Shown here piece after piece: positions 12,595 through 50,138 of a stretch of DNA of 64,000 nt. Position 1 is the first letter of the stretch. Every line of letters starts with the position of its first letter. This DNA is from Wenyingzhuangia aestuarii (GTDB taxonomy: Bacteria; Bacteroidota; Bacteroidia; Flavobacteriales; Flavobacteriaceae): the NCBI RefSeq assembly GCF_011927765.1, contig NZ_JAATJG010000002.1:124001-188000 (forward strand), in the 5' to 3' direction. Made by a program: the position numbers and the translations under genes. The notes below the pieces were generated by a model. That model saw nothing but the letters and a program-made list of their open reading frames with translations. It was not told where the DNA came from and did no database searches.

Positions 12595-12595
12595 T

Positions 12596-13744: not shown

Positions 13745-13745
13745 A

Positions 13746-16269: not shown

Positions 16270-16270
16270 G

Positions 16271-20863: not shown

Positions 20864-21879
20864 GAATTTTGTATTTAGGAAATGATTTGTCTAGATCATC
20901 AAAGTACCATAGCGCTTACGCAACATTAAAAAGCAACTTGATCAAAGAGGGTTATACAGTTTATACGGCATCTTCTAAAGAAAATCAATTGTTAAGGTTG
21001 TTAGATATGTTGTTTCATATTGTAAAATATAGGAATAAGATAGATTATGTTTTGATTGATACTTTTAGCACAAATGCTTTTTATTTTAGTTTTTTATGTG
21101 CTCAATTAGCACGATGCTATCAACTAAAATACATTCCCATTTTACATGGAGGAAATTTGCCTCAAAGAATTGAAAACTCTGTTTTTTTATCGAATTTGAT
21201 TTTTAATAACTCCTATAAAAATGTAGCTCCTTCTAATTATTTAAAGAAGGCTTTTCAAAAAAAAGGATACCCTTCTATTTTAATTCCAAATTCAATAGCA
21301 ATTGATTGCTATTTTTATAAGGAAAGGAGTGTTTTAGCACCTAAGCTTTTATATGTAAGAGCTTTTGCTAATATTTACAATCCTACAATGGCCATAGAGG
21401 TTTTTAAAAAACTTTTAGAAACAGAGCCTAGTGCTGAATTGTGCATGGTAGGACCTGATAGAGACGGAACGTTAGCTACGGTTTTAGAAGCAATTAAACA
21501 GAATAACTTAGAAGAAAAAGTGAAAATCACAGGAGTTTTACCTAAAGAAGAATGGCATCAATTGTCTGTAGACTATGATATTTTCATCAACACAACCAAT
21601 GTTGACAATACTCCCGTAAGTTTAATAGAAGCTATGGCTTTAGGTATGCCTATTGTGTCTACCAATGTGGGGGGGATTCCTTATTTAATGGAAGATGGTA
21701 GTGATGGAATACTTGTCAATCCAAACTCGGTAACCGAAATGTATGATGGAATTGTTTCTTTATTAGAGGATAGCAGTAAAGCCAATTTATTGTCTAAAAA
21801 TGGAAGAGCAAAAGCAGCACAATTAGATTGGTCTTTTGTGAGTCAGGAATGGAAAAAAGTGCTAGGACATGTTGAGTAA
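20860..21879 (+). CDS. GT4 family glycosyltransferase
   Basis: 339-residue GT-B enzyme. It begins MRILYLGNDLSRSSKYHSAY, has LHGGNLPQRIENS, LIPNSIAIDCY and MVGPDRDG. In the donor site NVDNTPVSLIEAMALGMPIV the first position of E-x7-E is Asp, as in the GT4 gene at 5157. It overlaps the polymerase gene by 4 nt and the following adenylate-forming enzyme gene by 11 nt. Confidence 0.86.
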   Translation: MRILYLGNDLSRSSKYHSAYATLKSNLIKEGYTVYTASSKENQLLRLLDMLFHIVKYRNKIDYVLIDTFSTNAFYFSFLCAQLARCYQLKYIPILHGGNLPQRIENSVFLSNLIFNNSYKNVAPSNYLKKAFQKKGYPSILIPNSIAIDCYFYKERSVLAPKLLYVRAFANIYNPTMAIEVFKKLLETEPSAELCMVGPDRDGTLATVLEAIKQNNLEEKVKITGVLPKEEWHQLSVDYDIFINTTNVDNTPVSLIEAMALGMPIVSTNVGGIPYLMEDGSDGILVNPNSVTEMYDGIVSLLEDSSKANLLSKNGRAKAAQLDWSFVSQEWKKVLGHVE

Positions 21880-23149
21880 GTTCATCTTTAATATGGGGCA
21901 ACAATTAAGAAATCCATCCATCCAAAAATGGTTTGATTTTTTAAAAACTTCTGAGAACTGGTCTATTGAAGAGTTAGAAGTTTATCAACTAGAAAAATTA
22001 AAAGAATTGTTGAGTTTTGCTTATGAAAATTCAGATTTTTATAAAAGGTTGTTTGATGATCATAATATTTTGTTAAAGGATATACAATCTCTGTCAGACC
22101 TTAGTAAAATTCCTACCATTGAGAAGCAAGATTTGTTGCAATTCAATCATGAAATTCATACTCAAAACACGTACAAGACTTTAAAAGCAACAACTTCAGG
22201 TAGCTCAGGAGAATCTCTAGTTTTTCAGAGAGAAGAAGCTACAGATTCTTTTAATAGAGCTTCCATTTTTAGAGGTTATAGTTGGTATGATGTACAGCCT
22301 TGGGATAAAAACGGTTATTTCTGGGGATTTAATTTTAGTTGGAAACAAAAACTAAAAACGAAAATCTTAGATGTGTTACAAAACAGATTTAGAATTTTTA
22401 GTTATGATAAAAATTCGTTTGAAGCCTTTGTGAATAAATTGGGTACAGCCACTTATTTACACGGATATTCATCTATGATTTACCAAACTGCCAAGTTGGT
22501 GAATGAAAGAAATTTGGCAAAACCGAAACATATCAAATTAGTAAAAGGAACTAGTGAAAAGATTTTTGAGAAGTATCAAGAAGAAGTAAAAAAAGCTTTT
22601 GGAGTTCCTATGGTTAGTGAATATGGAGCTACGGAATCTGGAATTATTGCTTTTGAATGTCCGGAAGGAAACATGCATTTAAACATGGAAGGTGTTTTGG
22701 TTGAAGAAATCAATCATGAAATTGTAGTAACCAATCTACAAATGAAATCTTTTCCCATTATTAGATATAAATTAGGAGATTATATTTCTTTGGAAAAGGA
22801 TGATTATCAATGTAACTGTGGAAGAGCTCATAAAGTTTTAAAAGAAGTTACGGGTAGAGTAGGTTCTAACGTATACGGAAAACAAGAAATATATCCTAGT
22901 TTGTATTTTTATTATATTTTTAAAAATTTAGTAAAAACTTATGGACTTAAATTAAATTATCAGGTTCATCAATCTAAAAAAGGATTTTTAATTTTTACTA
23001 TAGAACAGCAATTAGAAGCTCAGGATTTAATTTATTTGGAAAAAGAAATCAGAAAATATTTTAAAAATGATGTGAATTTCGAAATTCATTCCAATCAAAC
23101 CCTACTATCAACAAAAGGAAAATTCAAGAGTTTTATTTCCAAATTATAA
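21869..23149 (+). CDS. CapK/PaaK-like adenylate-forming enzyme
   Basis: 426 residues related to phenylacetate-CoA ligase and the CapK proteins of capsule loci. The phosphate-binding loop is ATTSGSSGES near residue 108-117, the ATP motif is EYGATESGIIAFECP, and HLNMEGVLVE and PIIRYKLGDY follow. Members encoded in polysaccharide clusters are thought to activate a carboxylic acid for attachment to the glycan; the acid here is unknown. Four cysteines (ECPEG and CNCGRAH) may bind a metal. It overlaps its upstream neighbour by 11 nt. Confidence 0.8.
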   Translation: MLSKFIFNMGQQLRNPSIQKWFDFLKTSENWSIEELEVYQLEKLKELLSFAYENSDFYKRLFDDHNILLKDIQSLSDLSKIPTIEKQDLLQFNHEIHTQNTYKTLKATTSGSSGESLVFQREEATDSFNRASIFRGYSWYDVQPWDKNGYFWGFNFSWKQKLKTKILDVLQNRFRIFSYDKNSFEAFVNKLGTATYLHGYSSMIYQTAKLVNERNLAKPKHIKLVKGTSEKIFEKYQEEVKKAFGVPMVSEYGATESGIIAFECPEGNMHLNMEGVLVEEINHEIVVTNLQMKSFPIIRYKLGDYISLEKDDYQCNCGRAHKVLKEVTGRVGSNVYGKQEIYPSLYFYYIFKNLVKTYGLKLNYQVHQSKKGFLIFTIEQQLEAQDLIYLEKEIRKYFKNDVNFEIHSNQTLLSTKGKFKSFISKL

Positions 23150-23151
23150 GT

Positions 23152-23901
23152 ATGACAAATCAGCCTTTAGTTTCTATTATTACACCTAGTTATAATTCTG
23201 AAAATTTTATTTCAGAGACCATAAACAGTGTTTTAAAGCAAACGTATCAAAATTGGGAGTTGCTAATTACCGATGATGGTTCTACAGATAGTTCTACAAA
23301 AATTATTAAGAATTTTATAGAACAAGATTCAAGAATTCAGTTATTTACGATTCAAAACGGCGGAGCTGCTGTAGCAAGAAATAATTCTATAAAAAATGCC
23401 AAGGGGATTTATATAGCTTTTTTGGACAGTGATGATCTTTGGTTGCCTACAAAACTAGAGAAACAGATTGCTTTTATGGAAAGGAATAAGTATGCCATTA
23501 GTTATACTTCTTACCAAAGAATGTCGGAAATAGGAATGTTGTTAAATGATGAGGTGTCTATTTTTAAAAGAGTTAGTTATGCAGATATGTTAACATCCAA
23601 TAAAATAGGTTGCTTAACAGCTATTTACAGTACTGAAATTTTGGGTAAAGTATACATGCCTCTTATTAGGAAGAGACAAGATTATGCTTTATGGTTAAAA
23701 ATTTTAAAGAGAACTCCATATGCATTTGGGTTAGATGAGGTTTTAGCAACGTATAGAATTCGAGAAGCTTCTTTGTCTGCCAAAAAAACAGAAATGTTAA
23801 AATGGAACTGGTTGTTGTTTAGAAAGGTAGAAAAGAAAAGTGTTTTAAGCTCTTTTTATTATGTTTTATATAATGTTTATTATAAATTAATGCATAAGTA
23901 A
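23152..23901 (+). CDS. GT2 family glycosyltransferase
   Basis: 249 residues, a compact GT2 with all main motifs: VSIITPSYNSENFISETINS, ITDDGSTDSS, GGAAVARNNSIKNAKG and the metal-binding LDSDDLWLPTKLEKQ. QDYALWLKILKR marks the acceptor side. It is close to the bacterial transferases that add the second sugar to the undecaprenyl-diphosphate-linked monosaccharide, and the next gene encodes the initiating phosphotransferase, which fits that role. It starts 2 nt after the CapK-like gene. Confidence 0.9.
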   Translation: MTNQPLVSIITPSYNSENFISETINSVLKQTYQNWELLITDDGSTDSSTKIIKNFIEQDSRIQLFTIQNGGAAVARNNSIKNAKGIYIAFLDSDDLWLPTKLEKQIAFMERNKYAISYTSYQRMSEIGMLLNDEVSIFKRVSYADMLTSNKIGCLTAIYSTEILGKVYMPLIRKRQDYALWLKILKRTPYAFGLDEVLATYRIREASLSAKKTEMLKWNWLLFRKVEKKSVLSSFYYVLYNVYYKLMHK

Positions 23902-23935
23902 TTCCTTATATTTACCCGATAATATTTAGTTAAGT

Positions 23936-25321
23936 ATGGCTTTAAAAACAAAATTGTATTTATCAGAAAGAATTGTCTTACTTAGAATTATAGATGTTCT
24001 GTTTATTGGAGTGGGGTTGATGCTTTCTAGTTTATTCTTAAATTTTAAATATTTAAACTTATTACATGCTCCAATATCTATAAACACCATTGTTTTAATG
24101 GTGTATTATTTGGTCTGTGCACAGGTTTTTCAAATGTACAGTTTAAGGGATTCTGCAAGTAGGTTTCAGACCGTTAGAAATTTGTTTATAACTACCTGTG
24201 TGTGCTCTTTATTATATTTATATACTCCAATATTAACTCCAGTTCTTCCTTCTAATAGAATAGATATTCTAATTTTTTATGCTACCATTTTTCTATCTGT
24301 TTTTTTATGGAGAAATATTTACATTTTCACAATTTCTAAAAGACAGTTTTACAAGCATATATTATTGGTTGGAGGGAATAAAGAAGTTTTAACTGATATG
24401 TATTTTCATGCAGGAACTTATGCTAGAGATAATGCTATTGTTGGCTATATATCAGAAGAACCACTTGAGAACAATAATAGTTTTTTAGATGTTGAAACTA
24501 CGGATTTAAACAGAGTGATAGAAAATAATGATGTGAAAGAATTAGTAATATCATTAACCGGGTTTTCTGAAGAAAGTATTGGTATTTTAAATCAGAAATT
24601 AGCACGTGTTTTTGAGCAAGGAATTAATATTGTTAATTATGAGGATTACATAGAAAGAATTACACAGTGTGTGCCAGAAAACAACTTAACTCAATACTTT
24701 TATAAATATTTTAATTTTAGTGAAAACCATGAGAATCGACTTTATTTAGCGGTTTTAAGACTTATAGATATAGTTGCAGGAATTATTGGTTTAGCCTCGT
24801 TACTATTGTTTTTACCCTTGGTTTTATTAGGAAATTTAGCAGGTAATAGAGGACCTCTTTTTTACGCACAAGAACGAGTGGGTAGAAAAGGAAAAATATT
24901 TAAAATTGTGAAGTTGAGAAGTATGGTAAATGGTGCTGAAAAAAATGGAGCACAATGGGCTGTTAAAAATGATAGTAGAATTACTCGCTTTGGTAAGTTT
25001 TTAAGAAAAACCAGGCTAGATGAAATTCCTCAGTTTTGGAATATTTTAAAAGGAGAAATGAGTTTAATTGGACCAAGACCAGAAAGACCTGAGTTTGTTA
25101 AAGAATTGGAAAAAGAAATTCCTTTATACGGAATTAGAAACGTAATTAAACCAGGATTAACAGGTTGGGCACAAGTTATGTATCCTTATGCAGCTACTAT
25201 AGAAGAGCAACAAAAAAAATTGAGATACGACTTGTATTATATTAAAACTAGAAGTTTGTATTTAGATTTTAAAATTGTAATTAAAACCATTAACACCGTT
25301 TTATACTTTAAAGGTCAGTAA
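23936..25321 (+). CDS. Undecaprenyl-phosphate sugar phosphotransferase (WcaJ/ExoY-type)
   Basis: 461 residues. It transfers a sugar-1-phosphate to undecaprenyl phosphate and so starts repeat-unit synthesis at the inner membrane. There are four N-terminal membrane helices, a Rossmann-like CoA-binding region (ILLVGGNKEV), a fifth hydrophobic hairpin near 275 and the catalytic domain: ERVGRKGKIFKIVKLRSM, RITRFGKFLRKTRLDEIPQF, LIGPRPERPEF and PGLTGWAQV. It closes the glycan operon. Its last 21 nt overlap the 3' end of the convergent DUF4105 gene. Confidence 0.92.
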   Translation: MALKTKLYLSERIVLLRIIDVLFIGVGLMLSSLFLNFKYLNLLHAPISINTIVLMVYYLVCAQVFQMYSLRDSASRFQTVRNLFITTCVCSLLYLYTPILTPVLPSNRIDILIFYATIFLSVFLWRNIYIFTISKRQFYKHILLVGGNKEVLTDMYFHAGTYARDNAIVGYISEEPLENNNSFLDVETTDLNRVIENNDVKELVISLTGFSEESIGILNQKLARVFEQGINIVNYEDYIERITQCVPENNLTQYFYKYFNFSENHENRLYLAVLRLIDIVAGIIGLASLLLFLPLVLLGNLAGNRGPLFYAQERVGRKGKIFKIVKLRSMVNGAEKNGAQWAVKNDSRITRFGKFLRKTRLDEIPQFWNILKGEMSLIGPRPERPEFVKELEKEIPLYGIRNVIKPGLTGWAQVMYPYAATIEEQQKKLRYDLYYIKTRSLYLDFKIVIKTINTVLYFKGQ

Positions 25322-37600: not shown

Positions 37601-38590
37601 TTATTTATCTTCTAACTTCCAAGTTCTAACCCAATCGTATTTGGTGGTTAAATCATCAAAAGAGCCCGTTTCAAAAATACTTCCCTCTGGGTCAATTGGG
37701 TTCCAATCGTAAGTTTCTATAGCCATGGTAATGTAACCTTCTAAATCAAAATCTGTTGTGGGAGTAATAGAATAAACGTGTTTACCGTCTAGATAGAATA
37801 AAATTTCAGTGGGAGATTTCCACCAACATCCATATACAAAAAATCTACTATTGTTTGTTTCTGTTAATTTAATACTTCCAGATGCTCTGGTTTCTTCACC
37901 TATGTCACAACTTCTGTTGTGTCTAATTGTATTTGAGTGGTAAATTTTATCCCAGCCGCTAGCCCAAGAATGGGTATTGCTATGTACACGACCTACACAT
38001 TCTTGAATATCTAGTTCTAGTTTTCTAATAGGACCATTGTCGCAGTTTTGTTTAAATGCAATCCAAAAGGTAGAAGACATAACAGTTTTGTTTGCTTTCA
38101 TTCTACATTCGTAATACAATCCATGTTTTGCAGTTGTTTTAGATCTAATAATTGCTCCTCCGTGAGTCCAATTTATATTTCTTACGTTTTTTGGTGTGTC
38201 ATATTTTACAGTGGTTACATTTAAATTTCCATCACTTACGCTCACATTTTCAGCTTCAAATAAAGCAGGAGGTCTACCGTACCAACTAAATCCATCGGTA
38301 GCTGGGTTTCTGTGCCATTTATCATCATCAAAAGTAGTGCTGTTAAATTCGTCAGAAAGTGTTTCTACTTTTACCCATGTTTTGTCAGTAGGTGTAGGAT
38401 TTTCGGTGCTTAAAAAATAAGGCTGATCTGGAGAAGGAGCTGTGTCTTCTTCTGTTTCATCAGGTTGATTTTCTTCTGTACTAGGAGGGGGAATAAAGTT
38501 GATGTCAGAAGTGTTCTTTTTACTACATGATACAATCATCATGCAGAAAAGAAATAAAGGGAACTTTAAATGTTTAAGAAAAAATAACAT
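37601..38590 (-). CDS. GH16 family endo-glycanase, lipoprotein
   Basis: 329 residues. A lipobox (MMIVSC, Cys22) follows a hydrophobic signal, then an acidic Pro-rich linker, so the enzyme is probably outer-membrane anchored. The GH16 domain begins WVKVETLSDEFNSTTFDDDKW. The catalytic beta-strand motif E-x-D-x-x-E is intact: E192, D194, E197 within LELDIQECVG. The WYGRPPALFEAENVSV and HGGAIIRSKTTAKHGLYYEC blocks recall beta-agarases and porphyranases, so a red-algal galactan is the likely substrate; the subfamily is uncertain. It stands apart from the other catabolic genes at 56-64 kb. Confidence 0.85.
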   Translation of the reverse strand: MLFFLKHLKFPLFLFCMMIVSCSKKNTSDINFIPPPSTEENQPDETEEDTAPSPDQPYFLSTENPTPTDKTWVKVETLSDEFNSTTFDDDKWHRNPATDGFSWYGRPPALFEAENVSVSDGNLNVTTVKYDTPKNVRNINWTHGGAIIRSKTTAKHGLYYECRMKANKTVMSSTFWIAFKQNCDNGPIRKLELDIQECVGRVHSNTHSWASGWDKIYHSNTIRHNRSCDIGEETRASGSIKLTETNNSRFFVYGCWWKSPTEILFYLDGKHVYSITPTTDFDLEGYITMAIETYDWNPIDPEGSIFETGSFDDLTTKYDWVRTWKLEDK

Positions 38591-39301: not shown

Positions 39302-40771
39302 ATGGCTAAATCAGTAACGTTAATTGGTGAAGGGAATTATCCTTTTATGGGAGGAGGGGTTTCTACCTGGTGTCACTCTATTTGTACTGAAATAAGCGAT
39401 GTTGATTTTAGTGTGTTTTCTTTTACAGCAGATGTTGTTGCCCCTATTTATGAACTACCTAAGAATGTGGTTTCTGTAAAACAAGTACCTTTATGGTCTG
39501 TAGAAGAGCCCATTGAACTGTTAAGATACAATGAAAAGTATTTTGATAGGGTCTTAAAAAAAGAAAGAACCAAGTCTAGTGTAATTCGCAATCAATTTAT
39601 TCCTCTTTTTGATCAGTTTATAAAAGCTATTTTTTCTAAAGAAGATGATGCTGAATATCTCTTAGAATTGTTAGTTCAATTGTATACCTATTTTACAAAA
39701 TACGATTACAAAGAGAGTATGTATAGTATTGAAGTCTGGGATCATTACAAAGGTGTAGTAAGTAATATATCTGAGGATGATACCTATATTTCTAAAGTAA
39801 AAATATCAGACATTGTAACCTCTTTAAGGTGGATTTATCGTTTTTTATTGCCAATTACTATAGATTTAGATAAAACAGATATCAATCATGTTACCATATC
39901 TGGATTTCCTTTTTTACCCGTAATTATTGCCAAACACAAACACAATACTCCTGTAGTATTAACAGAGCATGGAGTGTTTATGAGAGAGAGACTTATCAAC
40001 TTAAGTAGTTCTCCTATGTCTTATTTTTTGAAATTATTTTTGATCAATTTCTCCAAAATAATAACAAGACTAGCTTATAATAGTTGCGATGTAATTGTAT
40101 CTGTAAATACCTACAATTTAAAGTGGGCAGAAATGTACGGGGCCGATCCTAAAAAATTTAAAGTAATCTACAATGGTGTAGATGAAGAACGATTTGTGCC
40201 AAAACCAAAACCCAACAAACATAAAGATACCAAAGTGGTAGTAGCTGCTGCTAGAATTTTTGAGTTAAAAGACATTTTAACCATGATAAGATCTTGTGCG
40301 GAGGTTAAAAAAGAAATCCCAAACTTAAAATACATTGTATATGGTAATAATGATGCTGTTCCAGAGTATACCGTAAAATGTGAAAATTTAATAAAGGAAT
40401 TAGGTTTAGAAGACTGTTTTATTTTAGCAGGTTTAAACACAGATCCTCCTTCTATTTTTGTGGAGGGAGATATTTCTATTTTAACTTCTATTTCAGAAGG
40501 TTTTCCATACACCATTATAGAATCTATGAGTTGTGGAGTACCTGTGGTTTCTACAGATGTTGGTGGTGTTAAAGAGGCTATAGAACACGGTGTAGATGGT
40601 TTTGTTTGTAAGCCCAAAGATTATAAAGGAATAGCAGAAAAGGTAATTCTTTTGTTAAAAGATGACGAGTTAAGAAAAGAAATGGCTAGAAAAAGTAGAG
40701 AAAAAGTAGTAAACAATTTTACAATTAAAGTAGTAAAAGATGCATACTCAGAACTATATAAATCATTATAA
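39302..40771 (+). CDS. pelF: PelF-type GT4 glycosyltransferase
   Basis: 489 residues. The PelF signature is at the start: LIGEGNYPFMGGGVSTWCHS. The donor site ISEGFPYTIIESMSCGVPVV has E399 and E407 (E-x7-E), and the C-terminus carries VVAAARIFELKDILTMIRS. In Pseudomonas, PelF is the soluble cytoplasmic polymerase that uses UDP-HexNAc to make the GalNAc/GlcN-rich Pel polymer. The next gene is PelG-like, as in known pel operons, which supports the call. It leads a six-gene operon with gaps of 0-3 nt or overlaps. Confidence 0.88.
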   Translation: MAKSVTLIGEGNYPFMGGGVSTWCHSICTEISDVDFSVFSFTADVVAPIYELPKNVVSVKQVPLWSVEEPIELLRYNEKYFDRVLKKERTKSSVIRNQFIPLFDQFIKAIFSKEDDAEYLLELLVQLYTYFTKYDYKESMYSIEVWDHYKGVVSNISEDDTYISKVKISDIVTSLRWIYRFLLPITIDLDKTDINHVTISGFPFLPVIIAKHKHNTPVVLTEHGVFMRERLINLSSSPMSYFLKLFLINFSKIITRLAYNSCDVIVSVNTYNLKWAEMYGADPKKFKVIYNGVDEERFVPKPKPNKHKDTKVVVAAARIFELKDILTMIRSCAEVKKEIPNLKYIVYGNNDAVPEYTVKCENLIKELGLEDCFILAGLNTDPPSIFVEGDISILTSISEGFPYTIIESMSCGVPVVSTDVGGVKEAIEHGVDGFVCKPKDYKGIAEKVILLLKDDELRKEMARKSREKVVNNFTIKVVKDAYSELYKSL

Positions 40772-40773
40772 TT

Positions 40774-42363
40774 TTGAATCCAATTCCTGAGAAAGTTTCA
40801 GATTTAATACTAGAAATAAAGAACTTAATAGGTATGCCTGTTGGGGCTAATGCTGTTATGGCTGTGTTAGAATCTATGGGGATTAGAGAAATTGATGTGG
40901 TAGAAGATTACCAACAAGAATCTTTGGCAACAATGGCTACACTTATTTATAACGAATTATTAAAAGAGGAATATACAGATGAAGAAATGAATCCTTCTAA
41001 TTTAGACGTATATGTATCGTCATATGAGGGTTTTAATAAAGTTAAAGAGGGAACAAAGTTCTACATAAAAGGATTGTTTAGTGTGTTGCCTGTGTTTCTT
41101 CAAATTTTTTGTGTGGTCTATTTTGGTTATGCTATTTGGGTAAATGTTGGTTTTAACGATTTGCAAAGTACAGCCGTTGTTTTGGCTGTAATTTGGGCTT
41201 TAATTTTAACAGGAGGATTTATACAGGTTATAGGTAGAGTAGGCTCTTATTATTGGAGTTCCTTGCAAAGAGTAAAATCGTACATAGCCATGAATAGGCT
41301 GTTTTTTAAAGCCGCTAGATTTGTGGTCTTTGTATTGTTGTTTATGAATATAGTCAACTTTTTTCTTCATCTATATCCGTACATAATGATGCTTATTTTT
41401 AGTATTTATACATTTCTAATAAGTATTCTTTTGTTGAGTTTAGCCTTAATGTACCCTATAGAAAAAAGATGGACTATTTTGTTTTCTATATCAGTAGCTA
41501 CAAGTATTGCTTTATGCTTGCACTTTTATACAAATATTCATGTTTTTATTACCCATTGGATAGGAATCTCTATTGTTATTTTAGAATCTTTTTTAGTGTA
41601 TAAATGGTCTTTTAAAGGTGTTGAAAGTCAAAAGAAAAAAGATGCCAAAAAGTTTATTAGATATGGAGTTATAATTTACAACAATAACTTGTATTTTTTG
41701 TATGGTGTTTTTTTGTACATCTTAATTTTTATGGATCGCTTTTTAGCTTGGTCTGCAGATAGAGATAATACGGTTATTCCTTATATAGTATACTATGAAA
41801 AGGATTATGAAATAGGAATGGATTTGTCTATTATTATTTTCTTTTTAGTAGCTGGAGTTTTAGAATATAGTATGCATGTTTTTTCTAAACAGTTGTCTGT
41901 TGTCTTACAAAAATTAGATTTTTATAGCTTAACTGTTTTTAAAAGGGAGTTTGCTTATTTGTATTTAAGAAACTTACTTGTGTTTTTAGGAACCTCTTTA
42001 GTGGCTTTTTTATTGGTCTACAGTTTTATGTATTACGACTGGGGGTATAAAAGTGCCTTTGGAGAAAGTTTTCCGGAAATTAGTAACAAAGTACTTATGT
42101 ATGGTAGTGTAGGTTATTTTTGTTTGTCGTGGGGGATGCTAAATGTATTGTATATGTTCCGATTGAATCAACCTAAAAATGCTGTTAAAATTATAATCTT
42201 AGCAGTAATTATAGATTTTGTAGTAGGAGCACTTTGCAGCAGAATGATTAGTTATGAGTACAGTGTGTATGGAATGTTAGCAGGTATGTTATTTTTCTTA
42301 CTAGGAAGTCTTTATTATAATTATAAAATCTTTTCAAGAATAGACTATTATGCCGTGTTATAG
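40774..42363 (+). CDS. PelG-like polysaccharide transport membrane protein
   Basis: 529 residues with about twelve membrane helices. PelG is the MATE/MOP-like inner-membrane partner of PelF. The segment YGVFLYILIFMDRFLAWSAD (D321 in FMDRF) and the later PYIVYYEKDYEIGMDLSIII closely recall PelG, where an I/F-D-K/R-x-I/L-F-W pattern precedes a similar loop. The first 105 residues form a soluble, acidic extension (VAVLESMG-like helices) not expected in PelG. It starts at a TTG 2 nt after the pelF stop; no ATG gives a complete N-terminus. Confidence 0.72.
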   Translation: MNPIPEKVSDLILEIKNLIGMPVGANAVMAVLESMGIREIDVVEDYQQESLATMATLIYNELLKEEYTDEEMNPSNLDVYVSSYEGFNKVKEGTKFYIKGLFSVLPVFLQIFCVVYFGYAIWVNVGFNDLQSTAVVLAVIWALILTGGFIQVIGRVGSYYWSSLQRVKSYIAMNRLFFKAARFVVFVLLFMNIVNFFLHLYPYIMMLIFSIYTFLISILLLSLALMYPIEKRWTILFSISVATSIALCLHFYTNIHVFITHWIGISIVILESFLVYKWSFKGVESQKKKDAKKFIRYGVIIYNNNLYFLYGVFLYILIFMDRFLAWSADRDNTVIPYIVYYEKDYEIGMDLSIIIFFLVAGVLEYSMHVFSKQLSVVLQKLDFYSLTVFKREFAYLYLRNLLVFLGTSLVAFLLVYSFMYYDWGYKSAFGESFPEISNKVLMYGSVGYFCLSWGMLNVLYMFRLNQPKNAVKIIILAVIIDFVVGALCSRMISYEYSVYGMLAGMLFFLLGSLYYNYKIFSRIDYYAVL

Positions 42364-43147
42364 TAAATTAAATATAATAGTAATGTTGATGATGTTTTCG
42401 TCTATTTTTGGGGCTAACAAACCCGATTTTTTTGTGTGTTATGCAAAGGTGCCTACATCTCAAATACAAGGGTTTAATACGGTATTTTTAGAATCTGCTT
42501 TTTACAATCATGCCGAGGTAGAGTTACTAAAGAAAAACAACAAAAAAGTATATGCTTACATCAGCCTAACAGAAGTAAGCAAACATAATACAGGTTTGTA
42601 TCAAAAGTTAAGTCCTTATTTGTTGTCAGAAAACAGCAATTGGAATAGTGCCTATATCAATATTTCTAAAGCTAAGGCAAGAGCTATTCTTATAGATGAA
42701 ATAGCAACTATTTATAGCAAAGGCTTTGATGGGCTTTTGTTAGACAATTTAGACAATGCATCAATTCATGGTCCATACAAGGTTTTACAGTCTAGTTTGA
42801 TCCAGTTAATAGAAGAAATTAATCATAAATTTTCGGATAAAGATTTAATCCAAAATGGAGGGTTGTTTTTGTTAGAAAAAACACATACAGTCATAAAAGG
42901 AATATTGGTAGAGTCTGTTTTTACAGATTACGATTTTCAGTTAAAAACATATAAAATAAGAAACAAGCAAGAAGCTGTGCTTAAAAAAACAAGTTTCATA
43001 AATACCATAAAACATTACAAGTTAAAAGGGTATGTAATAGAATACGCAAGCCAAAAAAGCGTAGTTCAAAAAATTTATAGAAAATATAATTTAAATCAGT
43101 TATCTGTTGTGGTAACGGATATTAATTTATCAAATAATTTAAAATAA
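42350..43147 (+). CDS. GH114-like secreted glycosidase (PelA hydrolase-like)
   Basis: 265 residues. A signal peptide (LNIIVMLMMFSSIFGA) suggests export to the periplasm. The rest is a TIM-barrel like GH114 endo-alpha-1,4-polygalactosaminidases: KVYAYISLTEVS, then GFDGLLLDNLDN at residues 125-136, and IQNGGLFLLEKT. The hydrolase domain of PelA belongs to the same superfamily, and the position next to pelF/pelG fits. Activity is not proven; which acidic residues are catalytic I cannot say. It overlaps the PelG-like gene by 14 nt. Confidence 0.72.
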   Translation: MPCYSKLNIIVMLMMFSSIFGANKPDFFVCYAKVPTSQIQGFNTVFLESAFYNHAEVELLKKNNKKVYAYISLTEVSKHNTGLYQKLSPYLLSENSNWNSAYINISKAKARAILIDEIATIYSKGFDGLLLDNLDNASIHGPYKVLQSSLIQLIEEINHKFSDKDLIQNGGLFLLEKTHTVIKGILVESVFTDYDFQLKTYKIRNKQEAVLKKTSFINTIKHYKLKGYVIEYASQKSVVQKIYRKYNLNQLSVVVTDINLSNNLK

Positions 43148-43150
43148 AGT

Positions 43151-45103
43151 ATGCTATATATAGGTCCTTTAAGAGTCCTTTTATTAGTGCTTTTTTTCTT
43201 ATTTATAGGAAAAAAAGTATTTAGATACCCTTTGCCCGATGACAGAATTAATTTTTTTGTTAGAAAATGGCTTAAGTATGGAACCTTTATGTTTGTGAGT
43301 GTGTTTATACTACATCAACTAGGTTTTTATGACTTGTTTACTGTGTTGTTAATTATTGTGTTGCTAGTAGTAGCACATATTTTGGGAATTAAGTTTAGAG
43401 ATATTTTTGCCATTAGCGAACGATCTAATGTTTTGTTATTGTACTGGGTAAATCTTTTAGAAAAAAAATATTTGGGAACTTATGAAGTCAAGCCCAAAAA
43501 GAAAATTCAGATCATAAAAGGAGAGTACATGTTCCTTATTAATATCTTATTAGTAAGTGGGGTCTTGTTCTATTTTTTAAGTAACGATTTGTTTACATCT
43601 ACCTTTTTATGGAATGATGATTTACTGAAGATTAGACTTTTTAACAGTCAAAAATGGTTTGTAGAAGGAATGGTAGAAATGGGAGATTTTCCATTTATTT
43701 CTATTTATGCAAAACTTACAGGATTAACTAACGAGCTAGCTTTAAAAACTTTTGGAGTGGTAGAGTTAATTATTTTGGCTGTTGTTATTTGTTGGTTTAC
43801 ATATAGAGTAACCAACAGGTCACATATTTTGGCAACATTAGCTATGCTATCATTAGTAGGCTTGTTTTTATATGCACCTATACATACCGGATATTTAACG
43901 GCTCACAACTCTATTTATTTAAGTTTAAGTTTTGCGTTACCTTTAATGGTGTTTGCTATGGAGCAAAAAAAAGAGTTGGTATATCACAGATTGTTTTGGT
44001 TTAGAATGCCTGTCATTTTTTTAACCTTATTTTTTATAAACCTACATGTTTACATTGTTATATTACCTGTGTTTTTTGTATCGTTAGCTTTATTTAAAAA
44101 GAGTAAAAAAGGAACTTTAAGGTTTTTAGGAGCCTATGCTTTATCGCTAACAATAGGTTTCATATATATTTATTTAGTAGCAGATTGGAACTATTTTATG
44201 GCCTATATAAGAACCAATTTAATTGCCGTAAACACCTACACCTATCCGGAAACCATTAAATACAATTGGAGCGATTACATAAACTGGTATCTGTACATAG
44301 GTTTGTTTTTTAATGCTTTATTATTCATCACCTTTAAAAAGAAAAATGTAGACACAAAAGTATTGGTTTTTAATTCTTTTATGGTTTTTGTGTTTTTGCT
44401 GTTTAAAGTCAATACTTATTTTATAGATAAAGATGTCTTAACAATTATTGTTAGAATTTTTATGCCTGCAACGGTAGTATCTGCTCTATACGCTGTATAC
44501 AGTAATGTATTAGGATTTACGTTTTTACAAAAGTTAAGAACCAGTACTGTTGCTAGTTTGTTGTGTATTAGTGTGTTTCTAGGTTTGTGTTTTAATTATC
44601 AAAAAGATAAAATTCACAACATTGTAAAGCCAGATAATTATGCCAATACCGTTTTAGAAGCTTACAATAAAATATTGATGAATAACTTGCCTTATTCTTA
44701 TATGTTGGTGAATGATAGTGAGCACTTTATCTTAAATAGTGATAGTCATTTTTTGATGAACTATAATGAGTTTACTCACAATTATGCAGAAAAAGATTCC
44801 ATATATAACAAGTATAAAACAAAGCAGAAAGTTTTAAAAAAACATCCTGAATATGTATTGCCTAACAGTATATATGTGTTTAAATACGATGATTATGGGA
44901 AAAATAATTCTGATGATCGTATAAGTAATATAAAAGAGATTAAAGAAAATAGCCGTGAAAATACTGCTATAGACAGTGTGTTAAACATACTAAGAAAAAG
45001 AGGTAGAACAGTAAAGGTGTATTACAAAGAGAATAATATATCGGTATATGAAATAGAAAATATTTCTAACTCTAGTAATGTAATAGATTTAATGTTTCAG
45101 TAA
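43151..45103 (+). CDS. Polytopic membrane protein of unknown function in the Pel-like operon
   Basis: 650 residues. There are about twelve hydrophobic segments in the first 500 residues and then a soluble C-terminal part of about 150 residues (after NYQKDKIHNIVKPDNYANT). A loop after the fourth or fifth segment (FLWNDDLLKIRLFNSQKWF) has paired Asp residues, recalling GT-C-type membrane transferases, but no family match is certain. No GGDEF, GAF or PilZ-like motif is seen, so it is not an obvious PelD. In the operon it takes the place where an inner-membrane assembly component would be expected. Confidence 0.55.
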   Translation: MLYIGPLRVLLLVLFFLFIGKKVFRYPLPDDRINFFVRKWLKYGTFMFVSVFILHQLGFYDLFTVLLIIVLLVVAHILGIKFRDIFAISERSNVLLLYWVNLLEKKYLGTYEVKPKKKIQIIKGEYMFLINILLVSGVLFYFLSNDLFTSTFLWNDDLLKIRLFNSQKWFVEGMVEMGDFPFISIYAKLTGLTNELALKTFGVVELIILAVVICWFTYRVTNRSHILATLAMLSLVGLFLYAPIHTGYLTAHNSIYLSLSFALPLMVFAMEQKKELVYHRLFWFRMPVIFLTLFFINLHVYIVILPVFFVSLALFKKSKKGTLRFLGAYALSLTIGFIYIYLVADWNYFMAYIRTNLIAVNTYTYPETIKYNWSDYINWYLYIGLFFNALLFITFKKKNVDTKVLVFNSFMVFVFLLFKVNTYFIDKDVLTIIVRIFMPATVVSALYAVYSNVLGFTFLQKLRTSTVASLLCISVFLGLCFNYQKDKIHNIVKPDNYANTVLEAYNKILMNNLPYSYMLVNDSEHFILNSDSHFLMNYNEFTHNYAEKDSIYNKYKTKQKVLKKHPEYVLPNSIYVFKYDDYGKNNSDDRISNIKEIKENSRENTAIDSVLNILRKRGRTVKVYYKENNISVYEIENISNSSNVIDLMFQ

Positions 45104-48100
45104 ATGAATAAATATATAAGTCTTTTAATAGGATTTATTTTTCTTATATCGTGTGGTAAAGAAAAAATAATAAAAAGGAAGATTGTTACTCCTAAGCAAG
45201 ACCATCAAGTTTTGTTTGTAACCAATCCAAAAGATAGCATGTCTTTGGTTATAGAAGATAACATGAGGCACCTGTGTGATTATACCAAATTTTCTTTTAA
45301 AACCATTGAGAATGTAGATCTAGATTATTTAGATAAAATTAACGATAACACTTCTTTGTTAGTACTTACGGGTTCAGATACATTGCATCAAAAAACGATT
45401 AAAAAAATTGTAGAATACGTTAAAAAAGGAGGTACGTTGTGTATTCCTAATGCAACCAAAGATCAAAGATTATCGTATTTATTAGGACTTAAATTAGATG
45501 CCGATTTTGGTTTAGATTTTACCTCTAGCGGATTTTCTTTTAACGAAGTTTTAATTCCAGGTTATCCTAAAAAAACATACAAACCCACCTATGTACATGG
45601 AGGCTTAGGAAGTCATAATTTTAATGAGGATGTAAATGTATACGCATCGGCAGTAAACAATCCGTTGTATCCTGTAATTATAGAAAACTATGTAGGTTTA
45701 GGAAAAACCATTTATGTAAATAGTTATTATCAATACGAAAAAGATGATAGAGGTTTGTTATTTATGCCTGTATTAAAAGCCATGGAAGGAATTCCTTATC
45801 CTATAGCTAATGTTAGTACTATTTTTTTAGATGATTTTCCATCACCCGTATATCCTAGTAAACCAGAACCTATAAAAACAGAATTTAATTTATCTAATGC
45901 TGAATTTGTTAGGCAAATTTGGTGGCCAGATATGGCTAAATATGCAGACTCTTTAGATATTAAATACACAGCATTATCCATATACGACTATAGTTTAAAC
46001 ACCGTACCTCCTTTTTCTTATAGCGAATGGGAACAAGTGCAAGACTCTACCTATGTTGGTAAAAAAAGTATTGTATCAACAATTTCTAAAAGTGTGGTAA
46101 AAGACGGGCACGAGCTCGGTTTACATGGTTACAACCACGTTTCTTTGTTAAATGAGGAATGGAACAAAAGACCAGATTACATGGCCATGGCATTGCAAAG
46201 TGTGTCTAAAAAATGGAAGACAGAAAATTTTGGTAAACTACCTGTTTCTTATGTGCCTCCTACTAATTATATTGATAGTATTGGTATTCAAGCTTTGCGA
46301 AAAGGAATGCCTTCTGTAAAATATATGTGTAGTTTGTATTTGGGAGAAAAACACGATGGTGGTGGTAGAGAGTTTGATGTAGATCCTTATAACAAAAACT
46401 TGTTTGATTACCCCAGAATATCAGATGGTTATGAACCTAATGATAAAATTAAGTTCTCTTATTATTCATTGTTTTTATATACAGGTATTTGGACACACTT
46501 TATTCACCCAGATGATATCTATCAAATTCCAAATGAAAACAATTTAGAAAGTAGGGGAGAGTTTGAGTTTAGAAATAAAAATAGTTTAGGTTGGAGGTCA
46601 ACTCCCTCAAGACCCGATAAAAAAGGTTTGCTAACTCTTTTTATAGAAGATGTTGTAACACCCATTAAAAAAACATACCCATTACAGCGCTACAAAACAG
46701 TAAAAGATGCTGTGCCTATTGTAAAGAATTGGAAAACAACTTATCCAGAATATAAAATTACAGAAGATGAATTAACATTGGTGTCTAACAAAAACACAAA
46801 GGATTCTTACTGGTCTGTATTTATTGGGAAAAATTTTGCTAGAGAATACGAAAAATCCTTAATTGTAAACGATGTTATCTATACCAAAACCAAGTATTTA
46901 GATGGTTACTTGTATTCCTTTTTAATGAAAGAGAAGTCTATAGTTTTAATGAATGTAAATCATCTAAAATCACAACTAGTTCAGCTAAAAACAAGAGATT
47001 TAGAATATGAACTTTTTGAGCTGTTAAATGGTAAAATTAAAAATTTAATTAAACAAAACAGACTAAGAGAGGCTACCAATGCTTTGGAAGCTTATATTAG
47101 TGAAAGGCCAACTATTAAAGACAACGTATTTAGAATTTATGCCAAATACATGTCTTGGCAAAATAGAAACGATGCCACTTGGAAATTCTTGTACGATTAT
47201 AGCAACCGCTACAAAACCAAAGATAATTTTGATTATTCTAAAACTTTAAAACAATACTTAGCATTACCTAGTACCGATGTTTATAATTTATGGTTGTACA
47301 AATACATGTTGTTAGAACCAAAAAACACAGCACATTACAAAGAGTTTATTGCTAATAATTACGAGCCTAGATTTTATAGCGAAATCAAAAGGATGTATAA
47401 AATCATTCAAAAACTAGAGCCTTCTCATCAAAATAGAGCAAACTACTTGATGTTTTTAGTAAGCTATTATCCTGATGATTTTGCCAAAGAATTAAACATG
47501 GATGAGGTGTGTAGCAATCCACTTTTAAAAGAAGAATCTTCAAACTTTGCATGGTTCTTTTCAGAAAGAAAACAATACAAAAAAGCCATTGCTTGCAGTG
47601 GTTGTAATAACGGAATAATAGACGATGATACAAAGTACAGTTGGTATACTGCTTTAGGTGATACTACAGCTGTTAAAACATTGTACTATGATAGATATTT
47701 TAAAGATTTATTATACAACAATCCAGAACAAGCCTTAAAAGAAGTAGCAACTAAAGATGTTTGTAAAGATGAGCTATATGTAAAGCATTCTGATGAAATT
47801 ACTTGGCTATATGCGGGTAAAGAAAATTATAAAAAAGCACTTTCTTGGAGTACTTGTTCAGACAGTATAAAACTGTTAGATAAGTTTGATTGGATGTATA
47901 AAATGCAAGACAAACAAGCGATTAAAACTGCTTATCAAGAACATTTGGCTTTACAAAACCATGCACAAACTAATTTACTAGCAGAAATTGTTGCTTTAAG
48001 AAAAAATAGTTTTTCCAATGCAGATACTAATAATGCATTAAAACAAGCAGAGCAGGCTTATTTAAATTTTGAAGAGCATCACACAGAAGACAATGCTAAA

Positions 48101-49222
48101 TTGGCCAATTATGTAGCAGATATTTATTTAGAAGACAATCTATTTAAAGAAGCTTGGCAAGTGGTTAATACAATGCCGGAGGGTACTTTAAAAGCAGAAA
48201 AACAAGCCTTGCTAAATGAGCAAGTTTTAGCTCAGAAAACAAGTATTCAAACTTATTTATTAGCCAATCAAGAAGAGTTGTTTTACCCTAAGGTATTAGA
48301 AAGCGTAAAAGCTTCTATTGTTTTTAGAGAACATAATTATGCTGAGTGGGAATCCGTTATTTCTTTAGATAAAACAAGTGTAAATGCCATTGTAAATAAT
48401 TTATCTGGAGTTGTGGTAGCTAAAAATGAACACAAGCACAGAGTTACTTTGCACAATCCTAATATTTATAAGGTTAAAAACTTAAACAGGTTAAATCGTT
48501 TCAGAAGAGAAAACATTCAACATACCTATTTTGGTTTAAAATACGCTTATATAAACGATAAGGTTGTAGACAATTGGAACTATCAGCTAGGAGCGGGAAT
48601 GGATGTAAGTGTTAAAGGAAATAAAAACTTGTACAACCTTATGGGGGGAGTTTCTTACAAGGCAGAAACCATGTTTTCTAACTTACAATTTACCCACGAT
48701 GTTCCTTTAACAAGTGTGGCTTACACATTAGGTATTTACGACACTAAGCTTAGTTGGTATTCCGAATATTTTCATCATAAAAAAAATGAATTTAGGCTTA
48801 CCGTAGAAGGAGATTTGTATAGTGATGGTAACAATCAAATAGCCACTGTTGTTCGTTATTATAGATTATTTAGCCTTAGTAAAAAAAGTACTTTATCTCC
48901 ATTTGCAGAAACAGCTTACAGTGCTAGTAATGCAAATTTACCTGGGGGTTTACCTTATTTTGCATTAAAAAGTAGAGCTTATTACGGAGGAGGTCTAAGG
49001 TATCAATACCTAGTGCCAGAAAACGATTATTTTAATAGGTTTTCAGGGATGATAGAACCCTCTTATTTTACAGATACATATTACAATACCTTTGGTAGAT
49101 TCTACGGAGAGTTAACATATAAATTTAGAGATTATACTTTTTTCTATTTCTCTGGAGAATATTTTTCACAAGACAATTTTTATTCAAATACATTCAATGT
49201 TGGTTTTAAACACATATTTTAA
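45104..49222 (+). CDS. Lipoprotein fusing PelA-like deacetylase, helical repeats and outer-membrane barrel
   Basis: 1372 residues. A lipobox (LISC, Cys17) ends the signal peptide. Residues about 30-600 resemble DUF2194/PelA-type polysaccharide deacetylases of the CE4 kind: D243-D244 in IFLDDFPSPVYP and H341-x3-H345 in LGLHGYNHVS are the expected metal ligands. Residues about 640-1080 are helical repeats resembling TPRs (RLREATNALEAYISERP, LFKEAWQVVNTMPEG). Residues about 1110-1372 are alternating beta strands ending in Phe (FNVGFKHIF), as in outer-membrane barrels and PelB. It would deacetylate, guide and export the polymer in one chain. Domain borders are estimates. Confidence 0.75.
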   Translation: MNKYISLLIGFIFLISCGKEKIIKRKIVTPKQDHQVLFVTNPKDSMSLVIEDNMRHLCDYTKFSFKTIENVDLDYLDKINDNTSLLVLTGSDTLHQKTIKKIVEYVKKGGTLCIPNATKDQRLSYLLGLKLDADFGLDFTSSGFSFNEVLIPGYPKKTYKPTYVHGGLGSHNFNEDVNVYASAVNNPLYPVIIENYVGLGKTIYVNSYYQYEKDDRGLLFMPVLKAMEGIPYPIANVSTIFLDDFPSPVYPSKPEPIKTEFNLSNAEFVRQIWWPDMAKYADSLDIKYTALSIYDYSLNTVPPFSYSEWEQVQDSTYVGKKSIVSTISKSVVKDGHELGLHGYNHVSLLNEEWNKRPDYMAMALQSVSKKWKTENFGKLPVSYVPPTNYIDSIGIQALRKGMPSVKYMCSLYLGEKHDGGGREFDVDPYNKNLFDYPRISDGYEPNDKIKFSYYSLFLYTGIWTHFIHPDDIYQIPNENNLESRGEFEFRNKNSLGWRSTPSRPDKKGLLTLFIEDVVTPIKKTYPLQRYKTVKDAVPIVKNWKTTYPEYKITEDELTLVSNKNTKDSYWSVFIGKNFAREYEKSLIVNDVIYTKTKYLDGYLYSFLMKEKSIVLMNVNHLKSQLVQLKTRDLEYELFELLNGKIKNLIKQNRLREATNALEAYISERPTIKDNVFRIYAKYMSWQNRNDATWKFLYDYSNRYKTKDNFDYSKTLKQYLALPSTDVYNLWLYKYMLLEPKNTAHYKEFIANNYEPRFYSEIKRMYKIIQKLEPSHQNRANYLMFLVSYYPDDFAKELNMDEVCSNPLLKEESSNFAWFFSERKQYKKAIACSGCNNGIIDDDTKYSWYTALGDTTAVKTLYYDRYFKDLLYNNPEQALKEVATKDVCKDELYVKHSDEITWLYAGKENYKKALSWSTCSDSIKLLDKFDWMYKMQDKQAIKTAYQEHLALQNHAQTNLLAEIVALRKNSFSNADTNNALKQAEQAYLNFEEHHTEDNAKLANYVADIYLEDNLFKEAWQVVNTMPEGTLKAEKQALLNEQVLAQKTSIQTYLLANQEELFYPKVLESVKASIVFREHNYAEWESVISLDKTSVNAIVNNLSGVVVAKNEHKHRVTLHNPNIYKVKNLNRLNRFRRENIQHTYFGLKYAYINDKVVDNWNYQLGAGMDVSVKGNKNLYNLMGGVSYKAETMFSNLQFTHDVPLTSVAYTLGIYDTKLSWYSEYFHHKKNEFRLTVEGDLYSDGNNQIATVVRYYRLFSLSKKSTLSPFAETAYSASNANLPGGLPYFALKSRAYYGGGLRYQYLVPENDYFNRFSGMIEPSYFTDTYYNTFGRFYGELTYKFRDYTFFYFSGEYFSQDNFYSNTFNVGFKHIF

Positions 49223-50138
49223 GCACTTGTTGCTATTGGTTGTTTTAGTAGGCTGTAGTACTACTAAAAAAACAGTTGTTGCTTCTCAAAAAATGCAGCA
49301 AATGGTAATAGAGATCTCTAAAAAAGCAAAGGACTATAATACTAATTTTAGCATTATTCCTCAAAACGGATTAGAACTTCTATACCAAAATATAGAAAGG
49401 TCTAACGGGTTAGATACTTCTTACGTAAATGCAATAGATGGTGTAGGTGTAGAAGCCTTACATTATCATAAAACAATAGTAAAAGATAACTACAGACAAT
49501 TGTTGCTCTCTAAATTGCCTAAAGAAAAAATAGTATTGTCCTCAGAATATGTAGGGAAAGATGCCGATTTGTTAAAGGCAAAGCAGTTAAACCTAAACAA
49601 AGGATATATTCCATTTATTCGTACCCAAAACAATCTGTATTACAAAGACATTCCGGAAACGATAAATACAGTTAAGGATATTAAAAAATTGTCCGACGTT
49701 AAAAATTATTTGTATTTAATAAATCCAGAAGCCTATAACACCAAACAAGCCTATTTACAAGCATTATCTACAACCAATTACGATTTGTTATTGATTGATT
49801 TATTTTACAATGATGTTCCTTTAACTCAAAGCGATGTTGCGTATTTAAAAGTTAAAAAAGATGGAACTCAACGCAAAGTAATTGCTTATATGAATATTGG
49901 TGCTGTAGAGAATTACAGATATTATTGGAAAAAAGAGTGGACTAAAAAACAACCTTCTTGGTTTAAAAAACAATACGAAGGCTATGAAGATGAATATTGG
50001 GTTGCGTTTTGGAATCCAGAGTGGAAACAAATAATTTATCAAGCTAAAAACTCTTATTTATCTAAAATATTAGAACGTAATTTTGATGGTGTTTACCTAG
50101 ACAATGTAGAGGCATATTATACGCTTTACCATAATTGA
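49197..50138 (+). CDS. GH114/TM1410-type lipoprotein glycosidase
   Basis: 313 residues. Lipobox LVGC (Cys20) then a Ser/Thr/Lys linker. The C-terminal 150 residues match the TM1410 group of GH114-like proteins: LLLIDLFYNDVPLTQSDV, VIAYMNIGAVENYRYYWKKE, WVAFWNPEWKQIIY and NFDGVYLDNVEAYY. Such proteins are sometimes mislabelled as cysteinyl-tRNA synthetase-related. It is probably an envelope glycosidase acting on galactosamine-rich polymer. It overlaps the fusion gene by 26 nt, so it belongs to the Pel-like operon. The N-terminal 130 residues are less conserved. Confidence 0.75.
   Translation: MLVLNTYFKHLLLLVVLVGCSTTKKTVVASQKMQQMVIEISKKAKDYNTNFSIIPQNGLELLYQNIERSNGLDTSYVNAIDGVGVEALHYHKTIVKDNYRQLLLSKLPKEKIVLSSEYVGKDADLLKAKQLNLNKGYIPFIRTQNNLYYKDIPETINTVKDIKKLSDVKNYLYLINPEAYNTKQAYLQALSTTNYDLLLIDLFYNDVPLTQSDVAYLKVKKDGTQRKVIAYMNIGAVENYRYYWKKEWTKKQPSWFKKQYEGYEDEYWVAFWNPEWKQIIYQAKNSYLSKILERNFDGVYLDNVEAYYTLYHN

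Follow-up and report, generated by a model that had tools for sequence, protein, structure and literature searches.

A probable Pel-type operon of Bacteroidota in which a deacetylase is joined to a predicted exporter

The window analysed here, a 64,000-nucleotide stretch of the genome of Wenyingzhuangia aestuarii, carries at positions 39302-50138 six open reading frames (ORFs) that a first-pass annotation had read as a Pel-like exopolysaccharide operon. All six lie on the + strand, and their coordinates bear out the tight packing described there, with gaps of 2, 3 and 0 nt and overlaps of 14 and 26 nt between adjacent ORFs. Pfam places GH114 in genes 3 and 6 and DUF2194 in gene 5; the window proteins of genes 2 and 4 match no Pfam family over its cut-off. 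Gene identities were computed from profile and structure comparisons, and the published papers are drawn on in part and cited by their PMC numbers.

Gene 1 (39302..40771, + strand) encodes a PelF-type GT4 glycosyltransferase of 489 residues, the predicted polymerase. Its product scores 180.3 bits against the PelF equivalog model NF038011, for which the cut-off is 100, with residues 5-486 aligned to positions 2-489 of 489. When the whole genome was searched with the same model, the place of gene 1 scored 176 bits and eight other matches reached only 19-41 bits. Phylogenetic analysis used 40 sequences, made up of 23 operon PelFs, 12 PelF or PelF-like proteins from plasmid records and five other GT4 proteins of the genome; P. 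aeruginosa and B. cereus PelF lie outside this sample. The Bacteroidota PelF sequences group in a single clade (100/100) whose sister group (95/95) is PelF of Deinococcus, Streptomyces, Thermus and Kocuria, and the Pseudomonadota and Fusobacteriota proteins fall elsewhere; the outgroup branches of this tree are very long and its root is weak (73/88).

Gene 2 (ORF 40774-42363, + strand, TTG start) has two parts: a helical N-terminal domain of about 95 residues (40774..41058), present in the family alignment ahead of the PelG-aligned part, and a PelG-like exporter domain (41059..42363). The PelG model PF16933 was matched at E<=0.001 in 14 of 395 genomes of the phylum. At the operon place in 27 operon genomes, five orthologues pass its cut-off, four fall below it and 18 are without a match. 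The five that pass span the profile from positions 23-32 to 452 of 452, one of them (genome G135) passing only when neighbours in frame are counted. An AlphaFold model of the window protein (pLDDT 81, pTM 0.76) has 12 long helices from residue 87 on, and Foldseek matches it to MATE transporters, WzxE and MurJ (best E 6.7e-4, TM ~0.5), the superfamily (MOP) to which PelG itself has been assigned (PMC13254593). With orthologues over the curated cut-off and a computed model of the MATE/Wzx/MurJ fold, gene 2 is identified as a divergent PelG, extended at its N-terminus by a further domain. PelF-adjacent proteins from Deinococcus, Streptomyces and Thermus align to that domain at 87.6% probability, a match that is suggestive at most.

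The largest gene of the operon, gene 5 (45104-49222, + strand; residues 1-1372), is a fusion gene. Its first part (45104..46813, residues 1-570) comprises a lipobox-like signal (Cys17), a CBM114 module and a CE26 deacetylase, and DUF2194 covers residues 25-570 (PF09960, 225.5 bits). Residues 21-482 match Protein Data Bank entry 9ZAU with E 1.3e-46, and with a family profile the match widens to positions 31-570 against residues 26-548 of the 9ZAU chain (E 6.7e-78). This structure is Bacillus cereus PelADA, the founding member of both CE26 and CBM114 (PMC13254593). The CE26 motifs described in that paper (the MT1 Asp-Asp pair, HxxxH, the MT3 Pro, an Arg, and the MT5 His with the Asp next to it) were placed on gene 5 through the 9ZAU alignment, and each of the nine positions D243, D244, H341, H345, P385, P386, R438, H468 and D471 is kept in 104 of 104 aligned rows (101 distinct). 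A lipobox-like motif lies within the first 60 residues in 75 of those 104 rows.

The first-pass annotation had proposed that PelA was split, part of it having moved onto PelB. We considered the Pseudomonas PelA deacetylase as the source of this domain and rejected it: full-length PelA (9CGY) is absent both from the three structure matches of gene 5 at E<=1 and from the nine that its first 571 residues give at E<=10, and it is gene 3 that finds 9CGY. In addition, PelADA belongs to CE26 and Pseudomonas PelA to CE21 (PMC13254593). Since the deacetylase matches 9ZAU, 9CGY finds no counterpart in gene 5 and the two enzymes fall into different families, the simplest account of these similarities is that gene 5 is a Gram-positive-type PelADA (CBM114-CE26) joined to what would be a PelB-like exporter.

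The remainder of the fusion protein fits such an exporter in its layout. A TPR-like helical-repeat region (47051..48343, residues ~650-1080) matches helical-repeat proteins in profile searches, the best at 5.5e-6, LapB at 0.0028 and BcsC at 0.019. The last part (48356..49222, residues ~1085-1372) is predicted from its strand pattern only to be an outer-membrane beta-barrel. By a measure that counts Trp and Tyr as apolar, strand-like alternation occupies 40% of nine-residue windows over the ~290 C-terminal residues, with 19 candidate strand windows; the corresponding shares are 9% for the TPR part and 17% for the CBM-CE part. In Pseudomonas, PelB consists of a TPR scaffold and a 16-strand barrel, with PelA bound to the scaffold (PMC12141448). 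Gene 5, whose barrel is tied to PelB by analogy of architecture only, would thus join in one chain what is a PelA/PelB complex in Pseudomonas.

Two hydrolases accompany the fusion gene. Gene 3 (42350..43147, + strand) encodes a secreted protein that, from its similarity to solved PelA structures (5TCB, E 2.9e-9; 5TSY, E 2e-8; full-length 9CGY, E 3.9e-8), we assign as a PelA-type (GH166-like) hydrolase. Among 99 aligned proteins of 240-310 residues that lie over a score filter (96 of them distinct), every row has the predicted catalytic residues D132 and E188. Gene 6 (49197..50138, + strand) encodes a lipoprotein-like, GH191-type protein that matches TM_1410 (E 1.2e-20) in two separate stretches whose order is exchanged: residues 185-307 align with positions 44-161 of the TM_1410 chain (i-E 1e-15) and residues 29-125 with positions 175-269 (i-E 0.04, weak alone). 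NCBIfam model TIGR01370 also aligns in two stretches, at 129.8 bits and so below its cut-off of 181. The swapped order recurs in all 35 rows (34 distinct) in which both halves were found, and E86 and D302 are kept in each of them. GH191 was founded on a Thermotoga maritima enzyme (TM1410) and an environmental enzyme (Env-GH191), the latter active on Pel; the catalytic Asp precedes the Glu in both, and the main text of the paper holds no word beginning 'circular' (PMC12054363). Compared with them, gene 6 keeps the catalytic Asp and Glu positions and has its halves exchanged. The possibility that gene 6 is truncated, which a Pfam match ending half-way could imply, was dismissed, since its last residues coincide with those of the W. 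heitensis copy and its halves are swapped. The gene is missing from some operons; where present, it follows the fusion gene, precedes pelF or lies upstream in inverted orientation.

The arrangement is conserved well beyond the window. In a survey of 395 genomes of the phylum, the DUF2194 cut-off was passed in 28, one by a marginal, partial match (G252, 30.8 bits) and the other 27 by open frames of 1268-1372 residues. PelF passed its cut-off in 27, and these are the same 27 genomes as those with the fusion (lists compared by eye). For either model at most three candidates per genome were scored, and PelF matches were reported only at E<=1e-30; additional or lower-scoring copies may therefore have escaped detection. 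The operon has a scattered distribution among close relatives, of which 3 of 60 genomes pass the DUF2194 cut-off. Gene order was compared in two sets of loci that have three genomes in common: a family/phylum set of the window and 28 further loci, and a titled set of the best 80 of 387 relatives. Under a strict rule, the five core genes share one strand and one order at 27 of the 29 family/phylum loci and at 66 of the 80 titled loci. This order is beyond chance; the expectation of the first-pass annotation that the other genes accompany PelF and PelG in relatives, and its view of the locus as a distinct Pel architecture, are thereby upheld. Within the best 80 of 387 relatives, the closest titled one is Wenyingzhuangia heitensis, with 76% identity over gene 5 residues 1-1372.

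The two exceptions in the family/phylum set are L072, in which gene 3 is split, and L051, in which other genes separate the GT-C membrane protein gene (gene 4) from the fusion gene and a gene-3 homologue was not found. The 14 titled loci that fail the strict rule comprise ten at contig ends, two with start overlaps and two with broken frames. In the overlap cases (L119 and L135) all five genes are in order and the called starts overlap by 92 and 101 nt, against 80 allowed. Several genes of L161 (Flavobacterium davisii) have broken frames, and in L154 (an uncultured Aquimarina) the fusion gene is broken. Two loci titled as Bifidobacterium breve (L172) and Sphingobacterium thalpophilum (L145) carry operons of flavobacterial type and are probably mislabelled or mixed metagenome bins. 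Within this survey the fused-exporter Pel layout is seen in Bacteroidota; as the titled set holds the best 80 of 387 relatives, that limit applies to the survey, and fusions elsewhere are possible. An extra gene of 518-547 residues stands between genes 2 and 3 in 21 of 28 relatives. The gene directly upstream of pelF in Flavobacterium was rejected as an operon member, its sequence being helicase-like (by eye) and its gaps to pelF 262-366 nt in three loci. Locus L051 and the stretch directly upstream (G299:C83; same phylum, other family) hold two adjacent pelF-like genes, a pelG-like gene and a GT-C gene, followed by other genes; between the GT-C and fusion genes are a SpoIIE-GAF gene, a GAF-HD_5 gene and a small STAS gene.

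On plasmids of Deinococcus, Streptomyces, Thermus and Kocuria (L077-L079, L081 and L175), whose PelF proteins make up the sister clade, PelF adjoins an unnamed protein of 420-505 residues. The N-terminal domain of this neighbour is alignable with that of gene 2 in the four loci compared (Kocuria excluded), and a polygalactosaminidase is annotated nearby in four of the five records. Three neighbours of ~700 residues were scanned, of which two pass the Agd3 model and one falls below its cut-off. These loci differ from the Bacteroidota ones in that no barrel fusion was noticed in their annotated stretches, and they possibly represent a further uncharacterised galactosaminan system.

Gene 4 (43151..45103, + strand; 650 residues) had been described as a polytopic membrane protein in an operon to which every enzymatic and export role of Pel could be assigned, an account that overlooked its fold. 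The window protein has no family match below E 0.1 and shows 10 hydropathic segments. An AlphaFold model computed from 51 relatives (pLDDT 80.6, pTM 0.82), whose C-terminal domain combines helices and strands, is matched by Foldseek to C-mannosyltransferase, oligosaccharyltransferase (OST) and ArnT (best E 7.7e-5, six at E<=0.001, TM 0.3-0.4), with unrelated proteins among the lower matches. VIA-align listed 50 entries, either GT-C enzymes (OST, ArnT, PMT, Emb, AftD) or GPI-transamidase subunits with the GT-C fold, the best having Z 18.7 over 426 residues at rmsd 8.3; judged from their names, we take all 50 to be of the GT-C class. One of 23 members of the gene 4 family matched DUF6541 (4e-6). 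On the strength of these models, we assign gene 4 a predicted GT-C glycosyltransferase fold. Acidic residues are conserved at D426 (50 of 51 rows), D428 (46) and D549 (50), and 46 of 51 rows have an acid within residues 155-160, a stretch which we take to be the catalytic first outer loop of GT-C enzymes. The acid of this loop is not at one position, and glycosyltransferase activity therefore stays putative.

Two refinements, both compatible with a Pel-type operon, turn on this protein. The product may be a decorated or mixed aminosugar relative of Pel, to which the GT-C protein adds side sugars and which the fused protein trims and exports. In keeping with this idea, the GT-C gene is as widespread as PelF (both in 29 of 29 family/phylum loci), the fold and the conserved acids are those outlined above, and the sister PelF clade neighbours Agd3-like deacetylases. 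On the other side, alpha-1,4-GalNAc/GalN chains are acted on by members of the families to which the deacetylase, the CBM and both hydrolases belong, as far as described in PMC13254593 and PMC12054363, and the first-loop acid varies in position, and we regard a decorated product as a doubtful if real possibility. Alternatively, gene 4 could be an inactive, GT-C-like scaffold that replaces PelD and PelE in holding PelF at the membrane, the product being plain Pel. A polytopic partner constant across loci, with a first-loop acid that is not strictly conserved, would suit such a role, as would the failure to recognise PelD or PelE among the operon genes. Profile comparison of gene 4 with PelE and PelD found no similarity, though, and its other acids are strongly conserved, so that we consider an inactive scaffold unlikely.

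As the first-pass annotation had also noted, no operon gene is recognised as PelC, PelD or PelE, no PelC profile search of the genome having been made. GGDEF was not found in the window genome by a search in which 8 of 14 control genomes were positive, nor in 25 of the 28 other operon genomes (26 of 29 with the window genome); the remaining three (G070, G074 and G299) have one or more GGDEF domains. Because PelD was not recognised and most operon genomes lack a detected GGDEF domain, control of the operon is probably independent of cyclic di-GMP (c-di-GMP). A precedent for Pel without c-di-GMP exists, in that streptococcal PelD lacks GGDEF (PMC7112168). The only extra gene scanned from between the pelG-like and hydrolase genes (L053:4615-6237) encodes an HD_5 domain, in which the GYP-like motif is degenerate (by eye), and such a gene might stand in for PelD.

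Taken together, we consider it probable that the locus is a Pel-type operon for galactosaminan synthesis, modification and export, in which deacetylation is covalently coupled to export. The argument rests on PelF and on PelG orthologues over their cut-offs, the MOP fold of gene 2, the matches to PelADA, PelA and GH191, the invariant CE26 motif residues, the synteny, the co-occurrence of PelF with the fusion, and the lack of a detected GGDEF domain in most operon genomes. The Pel-type call of the first-pass annotation, including the presence of PelF, PelG and a PelA-type hydrolase, thus stands, while its derivation of the deacetylase and its account of gene 4 have been revised. In the mechanism that we propose, cytosolic polymerisation by PelF would use an N-acetylhexosamine activated as a nucleotide sugar, most likely UDP-GalNAc, and the PelG-like MOP protein would carry the chain across the inner membrane. 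Once in the periplasm, the polymer would meet one large lipoprotein, whose CBM114 module would bind it and whose CE26 domain would remove some of its acetyl groups; the helical scaffold of the same protein would then guide it to the C-terminal outer-membrane barrel for release. Deacetylation and export, performed in Pseudomonas by two interacting proteins, PelA and PelB, would in this way be covalently coupled. The GH166-like and swapped GH191-like hydrolases may trim or clear the polymer; for the GT-C protein, the probable role is either transfer of a sugar from a lipid carrier onto the chain or that of a membrane scaffold. The gene identities, the folds of genes 2 and 4, the conservation of catalytic residues, the gene order, the co-occurrence and the missing GGDEF domains are computed results, and we infer the polymer, its export through the barrel, the function of the GT-C protein and the way the operon is controlled.

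Several results weigh against this reading. PF16933 (gathering score 29 bits) matches neither gene 2 nor any other place in the window genome, the fold matches of gene 2 are modest, and the exporter-family profile, compared with four PelG proteins over their full length, gave non-significant values (P 0.02-0.03), as weak as one unrelated pair. The helical region of gene 5 resembles the PelB TPR region weakly (P 6e-4, probability 11.6%), and profile comparison of its barrel with PelB barrels was negative. The PelF sister group adjoins Agd3-like (CE18-type) deacetylases rather than PelADA, and the T. maritima GH191 enzyme neither bound nor cleaved the oligomers on which it was tested (PMC12054363). 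Pel chemistry, as described in those parts of the cited Pel papers drawn on here, leaves a GT-C gene without a role. The PelD model PF16963 was also unmatched; since none of the control genomes (zero) matched it either, this result shows nothing.

It is also conceivable that the locus is an ordinary capsule or exopolysaccharide (EPS) cluster, made up of a GT4 enzyme of generic type, a Wzx flippase and neighbouring carbohydrate enzymes unrelated to either. An EPS-like cluster does lie upstream in the window (11200-25321) and is separate from the Pel-type operon; it encodes glycosyltransferases and one undecaprenyl glycosylphosphotransferase (TIGR03025, 319 bits against a cut-off of 296). Against the generic assignment, the curated PelF and PelG cut-offs are passed (PelG by orthologues), the gap between 176 bits and the 19-41 bits of the other eight PelF-model matches in the genome sets gene 1 apart, and linkage to galactosaminan-type enzymes is tight; this explanation is very improbable. 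Adjoining the operon, and not part of it, is a distant kappa-carrageenase-like protein on the - strand (37601-38590; 41 bits, cut-off 350).

Comparison with known systems further defines the Pel-type reading. With the Gram-positive pelDEADAFG operon of Bacillus cereus (PMC7112168, PMC13254593) the locus shares PelF, PelG, a PelADA-type CBM114-CE26 deacetylase and a separate hydrolase. It differs in the Bacteroidota host, in the fusion of the deacetylase to helical repeats and a predicted barrel, in having no recognised PelD or PelE, in the added GT-C gene and in the N-terminal domain of its PelG. With pelABCDEFG of Pseudomonas (PMC7112168, PMC12022489, PMC12141448) it shares PelF, PelG, a PelA-type hydrolase, a deacetylase and the TPR-plus-barrel layout. 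Unlike that system, it has hydrolase and deacetylase on separate genes, a deacetylase of CE26 rather than CE21 that is fused to the exporter, no recognised PelC, PelD or PelE, and a barrel without detectable similarity to PelB. A published description of a Bacteroidota fused-exporter Pel system was not found in a search conducted mostly at the level of listings, with subscription papers largely outside it and supplements excluded. The main texts of PMC7112194, PMC7112168, PMC12022489, PMC12141448 and PMC13254593 hold no word beginning 'bacteroid', and a paper on the KSB1 phylum (PMC9012183), judged from its listing, holds PelF, PelG and Bacteroidetes once each.

These findings add Bacteroidota from marine and fresh waters, a phylum unnamed in the main text of those Pel papers, to the carriers of Pel-type loci, and predict Pel-type biofilms in a large bacterial group, in most cases without the signal molecule by which Pel is ordinarily activated. 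A Pel system without recognised PelD, found mostly in GGDEF-free genomes, raises the question of what else switches PelF on. The fusion protein would offer a single polypeptide in which to study the coupling of deacetylation to export, a step that the cited papers, in the parts drawn on, describe by models, and the GT-C subunit points to chemistry beyond that which they describe. We put forward tentatively, as a possibility still short of probable, that Bacteroidota hold a distinct and largely c-di-GMP-independent branch of Pel, in which one covalent machine deacetylates and exports a Pel decorated in the periplasm by a GT-C enzyme and a swapped GH191 hydrolase is tuned to that product.

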